Shown here: piece after piece, positions 7,414 to 21,291 of the stretch
How the letters are laid out: every line of letters begins with the position of its first letter
How positions within the stretch are numbered: the first letter of the stretch is position 1
Notes under the pieces: generated by a model
The model's input: only the letters and a program-made list of their open reading frames with translations
The model's database searches: none
What the model was told of the DNA's origin: nothing
Position numbers and translations under genes: made by a program
Assembly: GCA_016176465.1 (NCBI GenBank)
Contig: JACOXD010000002.1
Span: 1 to 40,382 of the forward strand
Direction: 5' to 3'
Length of the DNA stretch: 40,382 nucleotides
Source of the DNA: Candidatus Daviesbacteria bacterium
GTDB lineage: Bacteria > Patescibacteriota > Microgenomatia > Daviesbacterales > UBA10151

Positions 7414-9105
7414 ATGTGGAGTAATTTGTTTCATTTTCTACTATTGCCTACCATATTCTCACTTATTTTTATTAGTATATTTTATCCTCAGATCAGCGCT
7501 TTTGTACATGCCCAGGAAACAAATCTGACGTATTATGTCTCACCGTCAGGTGATGATGTGCTTGGGGATGGTTTTAGTGATAAACCGTTTAAGAGTATTC
7601 AACACGCTCTAGATCTTGCGGAGGCGGGTACAACTATTCTTGTAGAAGAAGGTACGTATAACGAACATTTAGTAACAAAAACTAACGGGACACTCTCTTC
7701 ACCAATTACCCTAAAAGCAGAGGGAAAAGTTGTGCTCAAAGGATCTGATACCTCAAGAATATTTGATCTTTTCAATGATTACTATGTTATTGAAGGATTT
7801 GAATTTGATGGAGGATATTTTGATACAAAAGATGTTACAAAAACTGTCGATAAATTATTATGGGTAGAAACTGCAAGTTTTAATAGTATTCGATATAACA
7901 ATTTTCATCATGCACAAGGAGAGTGTATCAGAGTAATTTTTTTCTCAGAAGGAAACCGTTTTGAGTACAATACTATTGCTAATTGTGGTTTGAGGGATTT
8001 TGTGGGATTCAGGGGGGAAAGCTATAAAAATGGTGAGGGTATTTATATAGGGACAGCTCCTGAGCAAATTGACCCTTTGAAATGTAAAACAGAGGAATGT
8101 AAAACACTTATTTTAGAGACAGGACTACAAAAATATGGCAGAGAGACTTACACAAAAGACACGATTGTTGACCACAACTTCATTGACACCCACGGCAATG
8201 AATGCACTGATATTAAAGAAGGCTCAAGTGGGAATGTTATTTCAGATAATGTTTGTATCAGTCAATACGACTTGCAAAGCGCTGCCTTTAATACCAGAGG
8301 ACCTGCAAATACCTTCCTTCATAATACTGTAGGATATTCAGACGCATACAGCCAAAACCTGATTGGTGGTGATCATACAAGTAGCATAAGAGCAACAGGA
8401 CATGAAATACTTGGAGCAGCATTTCGAGCGGGTGGGGATGTAGTAGGTGATGGCGCTAACAATAACATTGTGAAAAACGATGTGTTGGACTTTGAAGGAG
8501 ACGCAAAAGTCGTTGTAAAAATACCAAAAGATGATATTCAAGGTGTAATATGTCAAAATAGCGTCGCATTTTTTTTAAGCGGTGGTTTTTCTGATAGCAG
8601 CAAAGTTATAAATGCTTCTATTTGTCCCTCTAGCTTTACTACAACAGAGCAAGCAGGAGCACGCGGCTGTGTCGGGCATACTTGTCAACCTATAGCACCT
8701 TCACCAACGAATTCTCCCACACCAACTCCATCACCAACATTAACGCCGAGCGCCTCGCCTACTCCAACTCCAACGCCAACTCCGACTCCTACCCCGACTC
8801 CAACAGTGACTCCCTCACCGACAACAGACATTTTACCTGCACCTGAAAATCTTACCGCTTTTTCCCCATCAGATAGCCGGGTAAAATTGAGTTGGGAAAA
8901 AGTTTCTGGTGCTGTTAAATACGAGCTATACTGGACATATTCAGGCTGGGGGAACATTTTCAAATATAAAAAATCTTCAACATCGGGAAACACCTCTGTT
9001 ACTGATGCGAAAAGTGGAAAAGATTACTCCTTCTATGTCACTGCTGTTGACTTGAATGGAAAACAGTCTCAACCAAGTAATATTGTTATTGTTAGGGTAA
9101 AATGA
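7414..9105 (+). CDS. Secreted right-handed beta-helix protein with Pro/Thr linker and fibronectin III domain
   Basis: 563 residues. Residues 1-34 form a signal peptide ending near AFVHAQ. YYVSPSGDDVLGDG and FKSIQHALDLAEAGTTILV (about 40-80) are the classic DUF1565/pectate-lyase-like opening, followed to about residue 415 by beta-helix rungs with repeated N and G turns. A linker of SPTPTP type spans about 428-475, and its DNA is a string of near-identical Pro-Thr codons. The last ~85 residues (LTAFSPSDSRVKLSW to the C-terminus) form a fibronectin type III domain. It is likely an extracellular polysaccharide-binding or -cleaving protein; a lyase of the PL6 type is possible but no catalytic residues can be named. 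There is no sorting signal, so it may be released. Confidence 0.82.
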   Translation: MWSNLFHFLLLPTIFSLIFISIFYPQISAFVHAQETNLTYYVSPSGDDVLGDGFSDKPFKSIQHALDLAEAGTTILVEEGTYNEHLVTKTNGTLSSPITLKAEGKVVLKGSDTSRIFDLFNDYYVIEGFEFDGGYFDTKDVTKTVDKLLWVETASFNSIRYNNFHHAQGECIRVIFFSEGNRFEYNTIANCGLRDFVGFRGESYKNGEGIYIGTAPEQIDPLKCKTEECKTLILETGLQKYGRETYTKDTIVDHNFIDTHGNECTDIKEGSSGNVISDNVCISQYDLQSAAFNTRGPANTFLHNTVGYSDAYSQNLIGGDHTSSIRATGHEILGAAFRAGGDVVGDGANNNIVKNDVLDFEGDAKVVVKIPKDDIQGVICQNSVAFFLSGGFSDSSKVINASICPSSFTTTEQAGARGCVGHTCQPIAPSPTNSPTPTPSPTLTPSASPTPTPTPTPTPTPTPTVTPSPTTDILPAPENLTAFSPSDSRVKLSWEKVSGAVKYELYWTYSGWGNIFKYKKSSTSGNTSVTDAKSGKDYSFYVTAVDLNGKQSQPSNIVIVRVK

Positions 9106-13203: not shown

Positions 13204-13326
13204 TTGACAATTAACTTAAAAAGCATTAAAAAGATTTTACAAGAAACTTATAGTCCGACCGCCAACGGAGGCTTTTCTTTCTCGATTTAGGTCGAGACAA
13301 GATTGCCTCTTATTTTTGTAAAAATT
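13204..13326 (+). promoter_or_regulatory. Promoter and structured leader of the sortase-substrate gene, sharing a 24-nt element with the 36.3 kb leader
   Basis: TTGACA (13204-13209), 17 nt, TAAAAA (13227-13232). The leader then carries ATAGTCCGACCGCC plus ten more bases (13250-13273) identical to 36298-36321. GGAGGC at the end of this element can pair with GCCTCT (13305-13310), enclosing a small hairpin CTCGA/TCGAG (13281-13295), and TTATTTTTG follows. That is a terminator-like shape directly before ATG 13327. The architecture suggests an attenuator or ligand-sensing leader; no known riboswitch class was recognised. Confidence 0.6.
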
Positions 13327-14466
13327 ATGAGACTGTTTAAAAAATTACTTATTGCTTTAGCCCTTTCAATTGTCAGCTTATTTAGTTTTTCTGGAATAGC
13401 TTTTGCAGATGAGTTAAGTAATTCCAATACTGGTTCAGATTCAACTAATACCATTGATTCATCTCAATCACAAGATGCTACAATTAACAATTCCAATACT
13501 TCAACAACAACTAACACTATAAATCTAGACAGCAACACTGGAGGCAATAGCGCTTCCGATAATACTGGAGATGCAGGAGTTTCAAGCGGTAATTCAAATT
13601 CTAATTTAACTGTTGATAACAGTGGAAATACTAATACGATTTCTGGTGCCTGCTGCCAAGGAGAGGGCGAGTTAAACTTAAGCAACAACAATACTGGTTC
13701 AGATTCTACTAATACAATTGATTCAGACTTGTCTCATCGAGTAAATATTAATAACACCAATGACGCTAATATAAATAATACAACTACAGTTAACGCCAAC
13801 ACTGGTGGAAATAATGCCAACGACAATACTGGCAATGCTGATATTTCAACCGGAAACATTAAAGTTGATGAAAGTATCAGTAATCATGATATCAACTTGA
13901 ACAAAGTATGTTGCCAGGGAAGCGATGGGTGGAATATTACTGCTTCCAATTCGTTTACCGGATCGGACTCCGACAATAACATTGATGTAAACGTTAACGA
14001 TATTTTCAATATTAATAATAACAGTGATGCAAATATTAATAACGAAGTTATAGTTTTTGCTGAAACTGGCAACAATAACGCTAACGACAATACAGGTGAT
14101 GCCTCAATAGAGACTGGAGATATAGATATTAATGTTGAAATCGAAAATGCCCATATTAATGAAAACATTGTTGATATAAATTGTGAAGAGGAAGAACCTG
14201 GCGGCGGCGGACCTGAGCAACCTTCCCCTCCTTCAAATGGGGGCAATGGTGGCGGCAACGGCGGAGGTGGTAATGGTGGAGGAGGAAACGGCGGAGGTGG
14301 TGGAGGAGGCGGGGGTCAAGTACTGGGAGCTGCTGCTGGAGAGGTACTACCAATTAGTGGAAACTCATTACTAGTTTACCTGACCCTACTAGCTGCCATA
14401 ATGTTTGGTTTAGGGTTATATTTACGGTTTCACTCGGGGCGCAGCCCAGGAAAATTAGCCTACTAA
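13327..14466 (+). CDS. Sortase-anchored surface protein with three Asn/Thr/Gly-rich repeats
   Basis: 379 residues. A signal peptide (1-28, ending GIAFADE) is followed by three ~90-residue units. Each starts with NTGSDSTN or FTGSDSDN and later has a TG-x-N-x-A-x-DNTG block and a short TG/SG turn. The first two units end in a Cys-Cys pair (ACCQG, VCCQG), the third in a single Cys. A long Gly-rich linker follows, then VLGAA and LPISG, a hydrophobic stretch and a basic tail: a cell-wall sorting signal of LPxTG type. The sortase gene lies 70 nt downstream. I chose ATG 13327 because the longer frame has no ATG and its N-terminus would spoil the signal peptide. It belongs to the same family as the proteins at 36493 and 38202. 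Likely role: a wall-anchored fibre or adhesin (inference). Confidence 0.85.
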   Translation: MRLFKKLLIALALSIVSLFSFSGIAFADELSNSNTGSDSTNTIDSSQSQDATINNSNTSTTTNTINLDSNTGGNSASDNTGDAGVSSGNSNSNLTVDNSGNTNTISGACCQGEGELNLSNNNTGSDSTNTIDSDLSHRVNINNTNDANINNTTTVNANTGGNNANDNTGNADISTGNIKVDESISNHDINLNKVCCQGSDGWNITASNSFTGSDSDNNIDVNVNDIFNINNNSDANINNEVIVFAETGNNNANDNTGDASIETGDIDINVEIENAHINENIVDINCEEEEPGGGGPEQPSPPSNGGNGGGNGGGGNGGGGNGGGGGGGGGQVLGAAAGEVLPISGNSLLVYLTLLAAIMFGLGLYLRFHSGRSPGKLAY

Positions 14467-14471
14467 AAATT

Positions 14472-14500
14472 ATCCCACCATCTCGGGTGGGATTTTTTTT
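14472..14500 (+). terminator. Intrinsic terminator after the surface-protein gene
   Basis: ATCCCACC (14472-14479) and GGTGGGAT (14486-14493) form an 8-bp stem, followed by a run of eight T. Confidence 0.85.
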
Positions 14501-14536
14501 AAAGTTAGAATAGTTTATACTTTCTGATCAGCTGAT

Positions 14537-15118
14537 ATGGAAAGTAATAATGAGGCAGTGCTAAAAGGGAAACCCCTTGTTTATTATATTGGTAATGTTT
14601 TAATAATAGCTGCATTAGCTCTATTTATATTTATTTATTATCCTTTTATAAGCATTTATTTTATTTCTCCAAAGCCAATTGATTTTAGCGATCAAAGTTT
14701 TACTATCACAATACCTAAAATTAAAGCCATTTCTTTAATCCAAAAAAATATTGATCCTTTCAATGAAAAGGAATATAAGAGTGCACTGCAAAAAGGGGTG
14801 GTGCATGCCAAAGGGAGTGGCTTACCCGGAGATCAAAAAGGAATATTTTTATTTGCCCACTCATCATTACCCCCCTGGGAGATGACAAGGGTAAATACGG
14901 TCTTCTTAAGACTTGGAGAGCTAAATTTAGGTGATGAAATAACTATAAGAAAAGATGGAAAGCAGTATAAATATAGCGTTTTTGATAAAAAAGAGGTCTG
15001 GCCAAATGAGGTTAGATACCTTAAAGAGATTCACAGTAGAGTCTTGGTTTTACAAACTTGCACCCCAATTGGAACAGACTGGAAAAGATTACTGGTGTTT
15101 GCAAAGCCAGAGAATTAG
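14537..15118 (+). CDS. Sortase
   Basis: 193 residues. One N-terminal membrane helix (about 14-43) is followed by the sortase beta barrel. Catalytic residues are visible: His108 in FLFAHSS, Cys175 in VLQTCTP and Arg184 in DWKRLLVFAK. The TLxTC-type motif and the spacing to Arg are standard. It joins LPxTG-like proteins to the cell surface by transpeptidation outside the membrane. Its nearest partner is the LPISG protein encoded just upstream; the large repeat protein at 38202, whose end lies outside the window, may be another. Class E/F-like by brevity of the C-terminus, but I cannot assign the class firmly. Confidence 0.92.
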   Translation: MESNNEAVLKGKPLVYYIGNVLIIAALALFIFIYYPFISIYFISPKPIDFSDQSFTITIPKIKAISLIQKNIDPFNEKEYKSALQKGVVHAKGSGLPGDQKGIFLFAHSSLPPWEMTRVNTVFLRLGELNLGDEITIRKDGKQYKYSVFDKKEVWPNEVRYLKEIHSRVLVLQTCTPIGTDWKRLLVFAKPEN

Positions 15119-15152: not shown

Positions 15153-18065
15153 TTATTTTACAGCACTTAGTAAGTTAGGCTTAGATACTGAAGAAGTGTA
15201 AATATTTTGTCCATTACTATGGATTGTATTATCATCCAGATAGTTCTTTGATCCTTTAGCTGTTTTATTAAACACACCATAAGATCTATTGTTAGAAATT
15301 GTATTGTTTGATAACTGATTATCTGATGCATAATCCAATAAATAAACTCCAACTTTATTTTGAACAATTGTATTGTCAGCTAATAAATTAGCTGAAGTTT
15401 TAATATAAACTGCATTTGTATTGGCTGTTAGGTTATTGGCAACTAAGTTATTTTTATTTGCCTGTCCATAAAGGTAAATGCCAAACTGCTTATTGTTGCT
15501 GAACTGATTATTTGTAATTATATTCTCTTCAGATTTCATATTAGCCCTGAACCCTCTTTGGTTATTCTTAATGGTGTTGTTTTTAATAATATTTCTGCTT
15601 GAATCATAAAGGGCAATACCGTCTTTGTTTCCATAAACAGTATTTCCCTCAACAATGTTGTCATTTGAATTTCGATCAAGCATTATTCCATGCAATTTAT
15701 TATTATAAGAGAGATTATTTCTAATTATATTGTTGATACATCTTTTTGAAAAAATTATTCCATGGTTTCCATTATCATGGAAAGTGTTGTTTTCCACTAA
15801 GAAGTTATTAGAATCATCATGAGGGTCTAGACCGTATTGAATGTTTGAATAAAACTCATTATTTTGCCAGACCATAGCTGTAGCTCCATATGTGTAAGCT
15901 CCAAAGTAATTATGATGGAATTTAGAGTTTTTAACCTCCCCTGTACTTAAGTATTTTCCTTTGCTATCATTTGGAATTTTCCAAGCTACACCATAGGATG
16001 AACCATCAATTGGAGATTTAGGGAAAAAGCCTAAATATGCCAATTCTGAATCGTAAACATCCATTCTGGATGAATACTTAGCCATAATAAATGACCTGCC
16101 GTTTTTCTCATCCTTATCATAGTCATTTTTAACTTCATCCCAAGAAGTTACTTTGACTCCGTTAAAAGATAGACTTCCCCCATTAACCCTGATCCAAGTA
16201 AAACTTTGAGAGCCACTCGCCATTTTTAACCATGTTACCTGGGATTTATCAAGTTTAACTGTAACACCATTACCGATTTTAAGATTTGCTTTTAATAGCC
16301 ATTCTTTATCTTTGAGCTTCACTAAATGTTTATCCCCTACTTCCTCATAGATATCTTTTAGTGAAACTTGAGTACCTCTACCCAAGATATTTATGGTATT
16401 TGAGTCTTTAGCATAAGAAATAGTTGCTGTAGGTAAGTTTTTAATAGTATGAGAATACTGCTTGGCGCTGCCTACCTGGAAATCCTGGTAGGGTATACTC
16501 AAAATCAGCCCAGGTTCAATTTTGCTCCAGTTAGGCAAGACTTGGATGTTTGCCTCTAATAAATCTTCAGGTTCAATATTAAACTTATAGGCAATAGTAG
16601 ATAGTGTATCCCCAGTTTTGACTTGATAACCTTTAATCAACTCACCCTTAGAGTTATAAAAAGCTATCGCTTGAGTGGCCGCTGGGCTGGCTTCCTTTTG
16701 ATCTATTTTTCCGAAAACTAAACTTTTGGTTTGGGTAGAAGTTATTGAAGCCACTTTAGTTTCCCCATTGATACTTTTACCCTTAAGGTTAAATACCAAG
16801 GATGTTAGTATAACTAAGACTATTGCACTCATTGCATACCCTGGGATTTGCTGCATAAATTTAATTTGTGGTAACCTAGACTTATCCCATCTGGTCATCC
16901 AGCCAGAGGTATTTAAAGTAAAGAAAGCATAAATTTTAAGCAAAGCGCTTAAAAAAGTATACAAAATAAAGACAGGCAAAACTAAAATATCCTCCGGCTT
17001 ACGCTTTAAATGAGGGTAAAGTTTAATGGTTCTGGAAAGAAACCACCAAGTAGCAATAATCGCAGCTCCAAGATAGTATCCTTCAAACAAAGAAAGCAAA
17101 AAATAAATAGGGCTTAAAAGTATAGCTGGAGCCTGTACGAATTTATCAACTTGGTAAAACGCTAAAGCAGGATGCTTCCAGGACCATCCTTCCATCATTG
17201 CCCTTAAATCTGATCTTAAACCATTTCGAGTCCATCTCAATCTTTGTTTTAGGTAAGATTTTAAATCTCTCATTCCTGGTGTATAAATTCTGGCGTTTCC
17301 TTGATAACCTACTTTCCATCCCGCTTTCAAAACAAGGTATGTTAGTCTCTTATCATCCCCAGAAACTACTTTCTTACCCATGAATGTTTCATTAATTAGG
17401 TCATTGGTCATGGGTCTAATAACTTCTCTTCGATAAAATGAAGTTCTACCTGTTAAACAAACTACTGCATCTCCTGCGGCAGCCATAAATGGATAATCTA
17501 AGAAATACCTTAAGTCTAAGTTAATATCAAAAAGTTTTTGGGCTAAAGAATTTGAATCTATTACATTTTCCCTAGTTGTTACACCTGCTACCCTGGGATC
17601 CTTAAAAGGAGACAATGAATTTTTAATTACATTTTCTTCCCATAAAATATCTGAATCAACTAAGGCAACAATTTCGCCTCTGGCAGCTTTAATCCCATCA
17701 GCTAAAGCAGCTCTTTTACCAGGGATTTTAGTAATTAGAAGTCTTGCTCTTTTATATTTTTTGGCAAAATCCCTAAAAACTTCTATACATCTTAAATCTG
17801 TGTAATCTATGACTGCAATAATTTCCTCAGGTGAATTTTTAGCCCAAGATAAAAGGGCCTTTTTAAATAAAGTGGGATCCTCATTGTAAACAGGAGTCAC
17901 TATAGAAACAGAGGCGCTAAATCCCCATGTGATAGGTTTATAGTAGTAACTTACTGTTTTTTTAAATACCCACACTAACCACCTCCAAATTCCCACAATA
18001 CCTAGTGGAAGATAGAATAAGATTACGGAAAAGTAGTTTTGGATAAGGGCAATTAAGTTTTCCAT
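15153..18065 (-). CDS. Fusion of GT2 polysaccharide synthase, LysM domain and AlgG-type polyuronate C5-epimerase
   Basis: 970 residues in one frame. Residues 1-30 hold a membrane helix. Residues ~50-300 are a family 2 glycosyltransferase of the hyaluronan synthase/Alg8 type, with VTPVYNED, DSD (137-139), GDD (236-238) and QRLRW (274-278), followed by membrane helices to about 427. Residues ~478-525 form a LysM domain (VKTGDTLSTIAYKF). Residues ~600-970 form a right-handed beta helix. It contains SRMDVYDSELAYLGF, HHNYFGAYTYGA, YGLDPHD (744-750) and GNHGIIFSKRC, which match the catalytic core of AlgG-type mannuronan C5-epimerases (DPH motif). Synthase, peptidoglycan-binding and polymer-editing parts are thus in one chain: catalysis inside, export through the membrane, epimerisation outside. 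The dehydrogenase gene 11 nt upstream would supply the uronic acid donor. The polymer is unknown (mannuronate or glucuronate). Confidence 0.88.
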   Translation of the reverse strand: MENLIALIQNYFSVILFYLPLGIVGIWRWLVWVFKKTVSYYYKPITWGFSASVSIVTPVYNEDPTLFKKALLSWAKNSPEEIIAVIDYTDLRCIEVFRDFAKKYKRARLLITKIPGKRAALADGIKAARGEIVALVDSDILWEENVIKNSLSPFKDPRVAGVTTRENVIDSNSLAQKLFDINLDLRYFLDYPFMAAAGDAVVCLTGRTSFYRREVIRPMTNDLINETFMGKKVVSGDDKRLTYLVLKAGWKVGYQGNARIYTPGMRDLKSYLKQRLRWTRNGLRSDLRAMMEGWSWKHPALAFYQVDKFVQAPAILLSPIYFLLSLFEGYYLGAAIIATWWFLSRTIKLYPHLKRKPEDILVLPVFILYTFLSALLKIYAFFTLNTSGWMTRWDKSRLPQIKFMQQIPGYAMSAIVLVILTSLVFNLKGKSINGETKVASITSTQTKSLVFGKIDQKEASPAATQAIAFYNSKGELIKGYQVKTGDTLSTIAYKFNIEPEDLLEANIQVLPNWSKIEPGLILSIPYQDFQVGSAKQYSHTIKNLPTATISYAKDSNTINILGRGTQVSLKDIYEEVGDKHLVKLKDKEWLLKANLKIGNGVTVKLDKSQVTWLKMASGSQSFTWIRVNGGSLSFNGVKVTSWDEVKNDYDKDEKNGRSFIMAKYSSRMDVYDSELAYLGFFPKSPIDGSSYGVAWKIPNDSKGKYLSTGEVKNSKFHHNYFGAYTYGATAMVWQNNEFYSNIQYGLDPHDDSNNFLVENNTFHDNGNHGIIFSKRCINNIIRNNLSYNNKLHGIMLDRNSNDNIVEGNTVYGNKDGIALYDSSRNIIKNNTIKNNQRGFRANMKSEENIITNNQFSNNKQFGIYLYGQANKNNLVANNLTANTNAVYIKTSANLLADNTIVQNKVGVYLLDYASDNQLSNNTISNNRSYGVFNKTAKGSKNYLDDNTIHSNGQNIYTSSVSKPNLLSAVK

Positions 18066-18076
18066 ATTGACTTTCT

Positions 18077-19000
18077 TTAAAGTGGAAGCTCGGGATAATC
18101 GCTGATCCGAGAATCCTTCTCGCTGGAGGATCTTTTAATTTTTGAGGCTAACTTATTATTGACGCTAATAGTAGTTTCCAGTAATTCTGCTTCCAATCCT
18201 TTGCTTTGAGCGAAGGCATAAAAAGCTTGAGTGTCTTTTGGCAAGCAGCTTCCAGAGAAAGGTCCCAAGTTTTTAGTTCCATATTTACCATTCCAAATTC
18301 CCTCACAGCTTTTAACCACCAAGGCAAACATATTTTCAGTATCGACCTTAATGCTTTGGGCAATTTCTCTCATCTCATTAAAGAAAGTTATTTTGCAGGC
18401 GTTATAGAGGTTGTGAACGTATTTTTGCATCTCAGCTTCTTTTATGGGGACTTTATAAATTGGACAATTAAATCTTTTGTAGACTCGCTCCAGTAAATCA
18501 CCTGATTTTTCATCGTAGTTTCCAATAACAACTATCCAAGGGTTGGCAAAATCCTCAACTGCAGAAACTTCCCTTAAATATTCGGGATTCATGCAAAGCC
18601 CAAAACCTTTGCCAACTTTTTTGCCTGAATGTTTCTCTAATGTTTTTAAGACCAAGCCTTCGGTTGTTCCTGGGACTACTGTTGATCTAACAACAGCTAG
18701 GTGGTACTTTTTCATATTGGCAATCCTTTTACCCAAATCAACTGCTGCAGCTTTTAAATATTTAAGGTTAATTTCACCATCAACAGTGGGAGTTGGAACT
18801 GTAAAAATAGAAATATCTGTATCTAGCGCGTTTAAGGAATCAGAAGCAAGATATGCATCATAACCTTCCTCACGAAGCTTTTCAATGATATAGGGATTTA
18901 CGTCTATAAAAGTAACTTCAAACCCTTTTGACATAAATCCTTTTCCAGTTGCTTGTCCGACTACTCCAGAACCAATGATTGCAATTTTCAAATTTTTCAT
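18077..19000 (-). CDS. UDP-glucose/GDP-mannose 6-dehydrogenase family protein, lacking most of the C-terminal domain
   Basis: 307 residues. GSGVVGQATGKGF (10-22) is the NAD-binding loop, VRSTVVPGTT (104-113) is typical, and MQKYVHNLYNACKITFFNE carries the conserved Lys and Asn. SCLPKDT holds the catalytic Cys252. The family oxidises a nucleotide-activated hexose to the uronic acid in two NAD-dependent steps. Usual length is 390-450; here the C-terminal sugar-nucleotide domain is reduced to a short tail, and the stop is clear. It is followed after 11 nt by the GT2-epimerase fusion, so the two form an operon. UDP-glucose is the more likely substrate because a UDP-glucuronate decarboxylase lies 1.3 kb away, but GDP-mannose (as in AlgD) would fit the epimerase. 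Confidence 0.87.
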   Translation of the reverse strand: MKNLKIAIIGSGVVGQATGKGFMSKGFEVTFIDVNPYIIEKLREEGYDAYLASDSLNALDTDISIFTVPTPTVDGEINLKYLKAAAVDLGKRIANMKKYHLAVVRSTVVPGTTEGLVLKTLEKHSGKKVGKGFGLCMNPEYLREVSAVEDFANPWIVVIGNYDEKSGDLLERVYKRFNCPIYKVPIKEAEMQKYVHNLYNACKITFFNEMREIAQSIKVDTENMFALVVKSCEGIWNGKYGTKNLGPFSGSCLPKDTQAFYAFAQSKGLEAELLETTISVNNKLASKIKRSSSEKDSRISDYPELPL

Positions 19001-19125: not shown

Positions 19126-20285
19126 CTATAGGGAATTTAAAGGGGCTTCTCCAAAATATATGGGAAAGAATTTATCTTTTAAAGAATATAGAATAAATGT
19201 TTTATTATTTTGGTTTAACTTAGGGACAACATTTGGATAGTAACTATTAGTTGAAATTAGAAACTTATCTTGGAATTTGTCTCCATCCAAATAAGTTATG
19301 TAGCTATTGCCCTCTTTGGGGTCTTCTTCTGGAAACTCGTATTTATTTGTAGTCTCAAACCAAGTAATAAAGATTTTACCTTGGCTTTCCCCAATTTGGG
19401 AGAAATATTGATAATCCTTTGATAATGCTACAGCCATAGGCTTACTCCAGACACTGCCGTCAAAAAATGAATAGTAAATCTTGGTTCTTTTTGTCTTAGT
19501 ATCATATTGCCGCCAGGTAGTATGGATATTATTACTTGTGTCAATGGTTGCATCTACGTGCCTTGAGTCTGTTTTAGAATTTGCAATATTGCTCCAGTCA
19601 CTCCAGGAATCTCCCCCATCATCTGAGCTTGTCACCCAAATTTGCTGATTACTTAATCCATTCTTGGAATATGTAAAAACATATAGTTTGCCACTGCTAT
19701 CTTGGACTAGAGTTGGTCTGGACTGAGAATTATTTGCACTTTTTATATTCTTCCAACTTGACCAACTACTACCTCCATCTAAGGACTTTGAAAATTTAAT
19801 TTGCTGATTACTTGTATTTTTATCCTTTCCTTCCCAAACGATAAAAAGTGTATCGTCTTTGCCTACTAAAATATCAGGATGCTCTTGCCATAAGCTCTGA
19901 CCATTAAATCCATCAACATAGGAAACATTTGCTGCAGTACTCCAAGTGTCTCCTCCATCTAAAGACTTAGCATATTTAATCTGCCTGTTGTTTTCCAATT
20001 TAGGATCATCTGTTCCATACCAAACAAGATGAATATTATCCTTAGAATCAATTGCAATGGATGGGACTCTTTGGTTAACTTTTTTATTTATATTAGAAAC
20101 ATTAAAAGTTTTTTTAACAACGTATGATCCGTTTTCCTTAAATAACTTACTTACAAAAATTAGGTATCTACTTTAGTATTAGAAAACTCCAACTTTTTGG
20201 TGCCTTCTTCACTTACCCTTTGATGGTTCCAAAAAAAGATTGAGATTAGCGCAATAATTAATCCAATAATGATAACTTTACCCAT
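19126..20285 (-). pseudogene. Membrane-anchored sialidase-like (BNR/Asp-box) propeller, frameshifted near its N-terminus
   Basis: The main frame (stop at 19126) encodes repeated SLDGGxTWS / SKSLDGGSSWS Asp-box motifs (at least three) alternating with HPDILVGKDDTLFIVW-type strands, as in sialidase-like beta propellers. It has no ATG start, but coding-like sequence (PSIAIDSKDNIHLVWYG) continues upstream to a stop at 20173-20175. A second frame starts at ATG 20285, gives MGKVIIIGLIIALISIFFW, a membrane anchor, and stops at 20160-20162. Joining the two frames by a single-base shift between about 20163 and 20172 gives one protein of ~385 residues with an N-terminal anchor. It is either a recent pseudogene, an assembly error or a programmed shift; no slippery run is seen at the junction. 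Residues for sialic acid cleavage were not identified, so binding alone is possible. Confidence 0.65.
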
Positions 20286-20333
20286 AAACAATGAAAGCAT
20301 CATACATTCCAAGCATTTTTTTGTCCACTTTTA

Positions 20334-20339
20334 TATAAT
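20334..20339 (+). promoter_or_regulatory. -10 box of the uxs-nudix operon
   Basis: A perfect TATAAT 7 nt before GTG 20347. It overlaps the in-frame ATG at 20338, which rules that ATG out as the start if this is the promoter. Confidence 0.6.
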
Positions 20340-20346
20340 GATTTTA

Positions 20347-21291
20347 GTGAAAGTTATCGTGACCGGTGGTGCTGGTTTTGTAGGTTCCCATTTATGCGGC
20401 AAGCTGATTGAGTCAGGTAATCAAGTAATTTGTCTTGATAATCTTTTAACTGGTAGTAGAGGAAACATAAAACACCTAGAGGAAAATCCTAATTTTGAGT
20501 TTTTAGAGTTTGATGTTTGCAAAAGACTACCCGATACTCTTGAAGCTGATCAAGTTTATCATCTAGCTTCCCCTGCCTCCCCGAACTTGCATAGCAAAAA
20601 AAGCTATCATGCTCTTCCTTTTGAAACAATGATTGTTAACACTCAAGGAACTTGGGGCCTAGCGCGGTTTTGTTTGCAAAGAAAAGCAAAATTTTTATTT
20701 GCTTCCACCTCGGAAGTTTATGGTGATCCCTTGGAGCATCCTCAGACTGAAGAATATAAAGGAAATGTTTCAACAACCGGTCCCCGTTCTGTTTATGATG
20801 AATCAAAAAGATTTGGCGAAACTATAGTGGCCGCTTTTGTTAGATCAAAAGGGCTGGATGGAAGAATTGTACGGATTTTTAATACGTATGGACCAAGAAT
20901 GGCCTTGGATGATGGCAGAGTGATTATTGAATTTATAAAACCTGCCTTGGTAAATAAACCGTTACCCGTATTTGGAGATGGGGAAGGAACTAGATCTTTT
21001 TGCTATGTGGACGATTTGGTCGAGGGAATTATCAGGGCCATGAATACTCCTAATACAAAAGGAGAGGTTTTTAATTTAGGTAATCCCAGTGAAATAAAAA
21101 TAATTAACTTGGCCAAGAAAGTAATTGAGATGACAAATTCAAACTCTACAATTGACTTTAGTCAACCCTTACCTGAGGATGATCCTAAAAGAAGATGCCC
21201 AGATATTTCTAAAGCTAAAGATAAATTAGGATGGGAGCCTCAAGTTGATCTAGAAGCGGGTTTAAAACTGCTCATAGAATCCCTCAAATAG
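20347..21291 (+). CDS. uxs: UDP-glucuronate decarboxylase (UDP-xylose synthase)
   Basis: Extended short-chain dehydrogenase of 314 residues. VTGGAGFVGSHL is the NAD loop, LASPASP (about 72-78) and STSEVYGDP are hallmarks of the UXS group, and YDESK is the YxxxK catalytic pair. RIFNTYGPRM and GDGEGTRSFCYVDD are also standard. It converts UDP-glucuronate to UDP-xylose. I chose GTG 20347, which gives the family-typical N-terminus (M)KVIVTGGAGFVG and lies 7 nt after TATAAT. The upstream ATG at 20338 overlaps that box. It is the first gene of an operon with the Nudix gene 1 nt downstream. Together with the dehydrogenase at 18077 it forms a UDP-glucose, UDP-glucuronate, UDP-xylose route. Confidence 0.88.
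   Translation: MKVIVTGGAGFVGSHLCGKLIESGNQVICLDNLLTGSRGNIKHLEENPNFEFLEFDVCKRLPDTLEADQVYHLASPASPNLHSKKSYHALPFETMIVNTQGTWGLARFCLQRKAKFLFASTSEVYGDPLEHPQTEEYKGNVSTTGPRSVYDESKRFGETIVAAFVRSKGLDGRIVRIFNTYGPRMALDDGRVIIEFIKPALVNKPLPVFGDGEGTRSFCYVDDLVEGIIRAMNTPNTKGEVFNLGNPSEIKIINLAKKVIEMTNSNSTIDFSQPLPEDDPKRRCPDISKAKDKLGWEPQVDLEAGLKLLIESLK

Follow-up and report, generated by a model that had tools for sequence, protein, structure and literature searches.

On the reverse strand of a 40,382-nucleotide stretch of DNA from a Candidatus Daviesbacteria bacterium (the window, contig JACOXD010000002.1), two neighbouring genes encode what is probably a minimal apparatus for making and editing a uronic acid polymer. 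One is a single uninterrupted frame of 970 codons that joins a glycosyltransferase family 2 (GT2) synthase, a LysM domain and a beta helix of the type found in the alginate C5-epimerase AlgG. The other, a short nucleotide-sugar dehydrogenase, lies upstream of it across a gap of exactly 11 nucleotides (nt), both frame and gap being as described in the original prediction, which was made from the letters of the DNA without database searches. The genome in question is a Patescibacteria-type draft of 1.07 Mb in 18 contigs, with its nearest named matches in Daviesbacteria and Levybacteria. The motifs by which the fused protein had been read, DSD (residues 137-139), GDD (236-238), QRLRW (274-278), YGLDPHD (744-750) and HGIIFSKRC, are all real, and Pfam and NCBIfam uphold its GT2, LysM and beta-helix domains. 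The features of the two genes are as follows.

15153-18065, minus strand: GT2 synthase-LysM-AlgG-type C5-epimerase fusion gene (970 amino acids, aa), an open reading frame (ORF) with full-length homologues.
17949-18062, minus strand: N-terminal hydrophobic helix (residues 2-39), a predicted membrane helix from the AlphaFold model, with a hydropathy peak at 13-31.
17223-17918, minus strand: GT2 catalytic domain (residues 50-281; D87, DSD 137-139, GDD 236-238, QxxRW 274-278), from PF13641 and the fold match to hyaluronan synthase (HAS).
16761-17171, minus strand: C-terminal membrane and interface helices of the synthase (residues 299-435), including W-x-T-R 389-392, from the model, hydropathy and alignment with the WGTR of HAS.
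16491-16628, minus strand: LysM domain (residues 480-525), from PF01476.
15195-16430, minus strand: AlgG-type right-handed beta-helix C5-epimerase domain (residues 546-957), from NF038177, AlgG in the Protein Data Bank (PDB), AlphaFold and Foldseek.
15816-15827, minus strand: DPHD catalytic motif (residues 747-750), from conservation and the role of the AlgG histidine (PMC4444821).
18077-19000, minus strand: short nucleotide-sugar dehydrogenase (307 aa) with NAD-binding and central domains only, from Pfam and NCBIfam, Cys252 and Lys193 being present.

The C-terminal part of the fused protein is recognised by Pfam as Beta_helix (PF13229, 8e-33) and, over residues 561-864, by the NCBIfam AlgG model NF038177 (3.5e-37), where its score of 128 bits does not reach the equivalog cut-off of 700 bits, so that it is an AlgG homologue and not a certified AlgG. 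AlgG comes first in a profile search (2.9e-55), and the AlgG structure 4ozy is matched by sequence at 3.5e-29. A comparison of the predicted structure with AlgG and AlgE had been proposed, and it has given an AlgG fold with the catalytic histidine of DPHD in place: the AlphaFold model is a right-handed beta helix (predicted local distance difference test, pLDDT, 93.7) whose top four Foldseek matches in the PDB are AlgG (the best at 1.2e-20, with a template modelling (TM) score of 0.69 on the target), followed by AlgE4. Among 45 divergent sequences His749 is found in all, and Asp747 and Tyr744 in 44 each; the DPHD histidine of AlgG is held to be the base of the reaction, with the tyrosine coordinating a water (PMC4444821). 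The domain thus has the right-handed beta helix and the YG(L/I)DPHD and HGII motifs in common with the AlgG of Pseudomonas and Azotobacter, but differs in forming the C-terminal half of a synthase chain, in falling far under the equivalog cut-off and in being found outside Pseudomonas and Azotobacter.

The N-terminal part matches PF13641 over residues 53-281 (1e-27) and is modelled with a pLDDT of 93.3, its best fold match being the HAS of a Chlorella virus (7sp7, 4.5e-21), with cellulose synthase of the BcsA type next, and its best NCBIfam glycosyltransferase match being NodC. All 50 sequences compared keep the catalytic residues D87, D137, D139, D238, Q274, R277 and W278. Like HAS and NodC, the protein has the motifs of a processive GT2 enzyme, interface helices and a WxTR motif of the gating type, but compared with HAS it adds the C-terminal LysM-epimerase region and is only 19% identical in the fold alignment. 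PilZ, the domain of Alg44, which partners the mannuronan synthase Alg8, was not found by the Pfam scan in the fused protein itself.

The W-x-T-R at residues 389-392 lines up with WGTR in HAS, a stretch which, from the structures of that enzyme, we take to be a cytoplasmic gating loop. If the loop is cytoplasmic here as well, then helix 357-382 would lie at the membrane interface and the final helix, 402-435, would lead out of the cell, so that LysM and epimerase would both be extracellular. We infer this topology by analogy with HAS, and hydropathy alone would permit another count of membrane helices.

The dehydrogenase gene accompanies the fusion well beyond the window. A scan of GTDB genomes and a hidden Markov model (HMM) survey yielded 48 fused ORFs in 46 loci of about 42 genomes, mostly Patescibacteria, and a short dehydrogenase gene is present in 43 of the 46 loci, nearly always directly upstream or downstream. 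Its protein has the domains PF03721 and PF00984 and scores 201 bits against TIGR03026 (cut-off 190), with the catalytic Lys193 kept in all 42 members compared and Cys252 in 40; the NAD-binding and central domains and these two catalytic residues are common to AlgD and UDP-glucose 6-dehydrogenase. At the C-L-P-K-D position 41 of 42 have leucine, as in AlgD, and the family profile scores 238.6 bits with AlgD, its best match, and 218.8 with the top UDP-glucose dehydrogenase. A third short sugar-nucleotide dehydrogenase of the same genome (L118:1081-1923) is unlinked to the synthase, prefers UDP-glucose dehydrogenases and has CFPKD.

LysM itself is clear in the window protein (PF01476, 1.3e-9, 38.3 bits against a cut-off of 20.9) and in 33 of the 48 fusions, and was not detected in the other 15, mostly from Moranbacteria and relatives. 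Of the earlier proposal that LysM anchors the exit site to peptidoglycan, the domain has stood, and the anchoring is plausible but not universal; LysM may possibly hold the exit site in this way, without being a defining part of the machine.

Indications of the polymer come from the neighbourhood of the fusion in related genomes. A PL7 alginate lyase adjoins the fused gene in 16 loci (for two of these, PF08787 is matched at 2e-41 and at 1.7e-38). Among 95 related genomes, five of which have the fusion, just two have PL7; both of these carry the fusion, and the 90 fusion-negative genomes have none (Fisher p=0.002). The window genome itself has a mannose-1-phosphate guanylyltransferase of the ManC type (TIGR01479, 8.9e-72).

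Taken together, we think it probable that the two genes form a minimal machine of the synthase-dependent kind, making an alginate-type polyuronate that is epimerised as it emerges. The dehydrogenase would oxidise a hexose at C6 to give a uronic acid donor, most likely GDP-mannuronate, although this choice of donor is one we infer. The GT2 part would polymerise the donor at the cytoplasmic face, with the chain leaving through the membrane pore of the synthase as in HAS, and the beta helix, placed on the outer side of the membrane where the pore opens, would flip C5 of some residues on the emerging chain, from mannuronate (M) to guluronate (G) if the polymer is mannuronan. Where LysM is present, it may keep the outer part near peptidoglycan. 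The idea that a uronic acid polymer is made by the fusion and edited on exit was already part of the original prediction, and it is supported by the AlgG fold with its catalytic histidine, the HAS-like fold of the synthase, the partner dehydrogenase and the PL7 genes of relatives.

A number of points weigh against this reading, beginning with the AlgG score that stays under its cut-off. The comparisons of the synthase part covered HAS, cellulose synthase and NodC. The C-terminal nucleotide-sugar-binding domain PF03720, part of AlgD and UDP-glucose 6-dehydrogenase, is absent from every dehydrogenase member found, these being about 300 aa long (229-340 aa, with contig ends or broken frames truncating the shortest), and because of this the nucleotide-sugar substrate is uncertain. 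Supply of the missing domain by another gene was considered and rejected, as there is no PF03720 anywhere in the window genome; it is also missing from four of five fusion genomes checked, and is present in 14 of 14 control genomes. The label of Ugd-type dehydrogenase given earlier is hence right for the first two domains of the family and wrong for a standard Ugd, the protein being at least as close to GDP-mannose dehydrogenases as to those for UDP-glucose. The dehydrogenase tree does not decide between a place with AlgD and one with Ugd, and a grouping with AlgD is neither supported nor rejected (approximately unbiased (AU) test, p 0.17). No PL7 lyase was found in the window genome. ManC shows weak enrichment among the genomes with the fusion (29/39 against 50/90, p=0.05), and a 99%-complete Daviesbacteria carrier (G016) has no NTP_transferase (PF00483) at all; the attempt to read the donor sugar from ManC co-occurrence was given up on these two grounds.

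Several of these observations would suit a machine that makes a uronan other than alginate, a glucuronan or a hyaluronan-like copolymer, with the beta helix epimerising glucuronic acid (GlcA) to iduronic acid (IdoA) or another C5 pair. The solved fold nearest to the synthase is that of HAS, which uses UDP-GlcA, the best NCBIfam glycosyltransferase match is NodC, a single-sequence phmmer search ranks UDP-glucose dehydrogenase slightly over AlgD (161 against 156 bits), and ManC is missing from some carriers. On the other side are the likeness of the epimerase to AlgG in both sequence and fold, the adjoining lyases, which belong to PL7, an alginate lyase family in Pfam, and the dehydrogenase profile with AlgD at its head. 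Such a uronan is in our judgement unlikely, if still worth keeping in mind, and the polymer is probably of the alginate type.

It is less likely again that the beta helix is a former epimerase which now serves as a lyase or a polymer-binding domain, trimming or holding the chain at the exit. Epimerases and lyases of the beta-helix type share a mechanism, and AlgE7 performs both reactions with one catalytic site (PMC4444821). The position of the AlgG arginine, whose role is to neutralise the carboxylate, is also not cleanly aligned: K774 faces an Arg of AlgG in HGIIISREV and the adjacent R775 is kept in 42 of 45 sequences, leaving both the register and the choice of the catalytic AlgG Arg ambiguous. 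The invariance of His749 and the near invariance of Tyr744 and Asp747 across such divergent sequences nevertheless argue against this reading, as does the dedicated PL7 lyase that often adjoins the fused gene. That the fusion is an assembly artefact or a chance join of two genes, which a draft in 18 contigs might suggest, has next to no probability, since the same full-length order is seen in a paralogue on a different contig and in independent genomes by the dozen.

This recurrence also answers the call, made with the original prediction, to look for the same domain order in other genomes, and refutes an assembly error. The paralogue in the window genome (C15, L009:7225-12993) is 57% identical over its full length, its own dehydrogenase gene overlaps the start of the fused gene, and a separate secreted AlgG-like epimerase of 605 aa is encoded divergently at that locus. 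Carriers of the fusion include Davies-, Levy-, Ames-, Curtiss-, Roizman-, Woese-, Moran-, Nomura-, Staskawicz- and Falkowbacteria and WWE3, together with a single contig that bears the label Chloroflexi and is possibly misbinned, and within the clade of the window protein the synthases are 39-64% identical to it. An even draw across the phylum gave strong matches in only 3 of 380 genomes, the window genome counted among the three, so its distribution is patchy. Two Patescibacteria loci have the fused frame broken into two ORFs, and L075 has a split dehydrogenase frame (L065, L070, L075), by decay or by sequencing errors.

Viral and mobile origins were both considered and rejected. No relative was found in viral contigs, and on plasmids the matches were to NodC and other GT2 genes, with less than 80% of the query covered in every case. 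An operon on a Curtobacterium plasmid (L134:5917-10488), with a related GT2, a GH26 protein, a full-length UDP-glucose/GDP-mannose dehydrogenase and no epimerase, was set aside as a relative, being a polysaccharide synthase unit of another kind.

The same synthase clade, with a short dehydrogenase of the same type, is also found in Chloroflexota, Saccharibacteria, one Peribacteraceae genome and Nitrososphaerales archaea, where in most cases an AlgG-like beta helix is encoded nearby as a gene of its own, the archaeal ones matching the AlgG model weakly. These unfused neighbours independently tie synthase, dehydrogenase and epimerase together. In the GT2 tree genes of the Chloroflexaceae type are deepest and the fused forms lie in Patescibacteria, with several inner forks unresolved. 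The Nitrososphaerales loci (L087, L088, L090-L092, L094, L097) pair the synthase clade with a divergent short dehydrogenase, and in four of the seven a protein with weak likeness to AlgG is encoded about 4 kb away; they are possibly an archaeal uronan locus. We are evenly divided on whether Patescibacteria, Chloroflexota and Nitrososphaerales share an undescribed system of alginate type, distinct from the one in Pseudomonas and Azotobacter and made up of a HAS-like synthase, an AlgG-like epimerase (fused to it in Patescibacteria) and a new minimal class of dehydrogenase working without the usual substrate-binding domain.

Further genes surround the pair in the window. A sortase gene lies next to that of a surface protein with an LPISG-type C-terminal sorting signal (13303-15118), adjoining the synthase, and the same is seen near the synthase in another Daviesbacteria locus (L030). 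Upstream of the dehydrogenase is a BNR-repeat protein (19126-19998) whose 5' part is absent from the open frame and which may be broken; homologues of 425-484 aa stand beside the fusion in nine other loci. A secreted beta-helix protein of DUF1565 type (7414-9105) has counterparts close to the fusion in some two dozen loci (e.g. L038:12961-14262, L071:12840-13997), and may be a further lyase or epimerase acting on this polymer. Divergent from the locus is an SDR-family sugar-nucleotide dehydratase/epimerase gene (20269-21291), with dTDP-glucose 4,6-dehydratase as its best NCBIfam match, below cut-off.

The known bacterial alginate apparatus is a multi-protein one that spans two membranes. A 2015 review gives Pseudomonas and Azotobacter as the bacteria from which alginate has been isolated (PMC4444821). 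The open-access papers searched describe neither a synthase-epimerase fusion, in agreement with the statement made at the outset that none was on record, nor an alginate locus or mannuronan epimerase in Patescibacteria, Chloroflexota or archaea. What appears to be new here is an architecture for synthase-dependent alginate-type biosynthesis together with an unusual dehydrogenase, and the latter raises the question of how such an enzyme works without a substrate-binding domain. If the reading is true, these ultra-small bacteria would get by with a single synthase-epimerase chain, a much simpler route in which the editing enzyme stays attached to the pore. The Patescibacteria would gain a predicted gelling surface polymer, and the production of defined alginates a compact enzyme.

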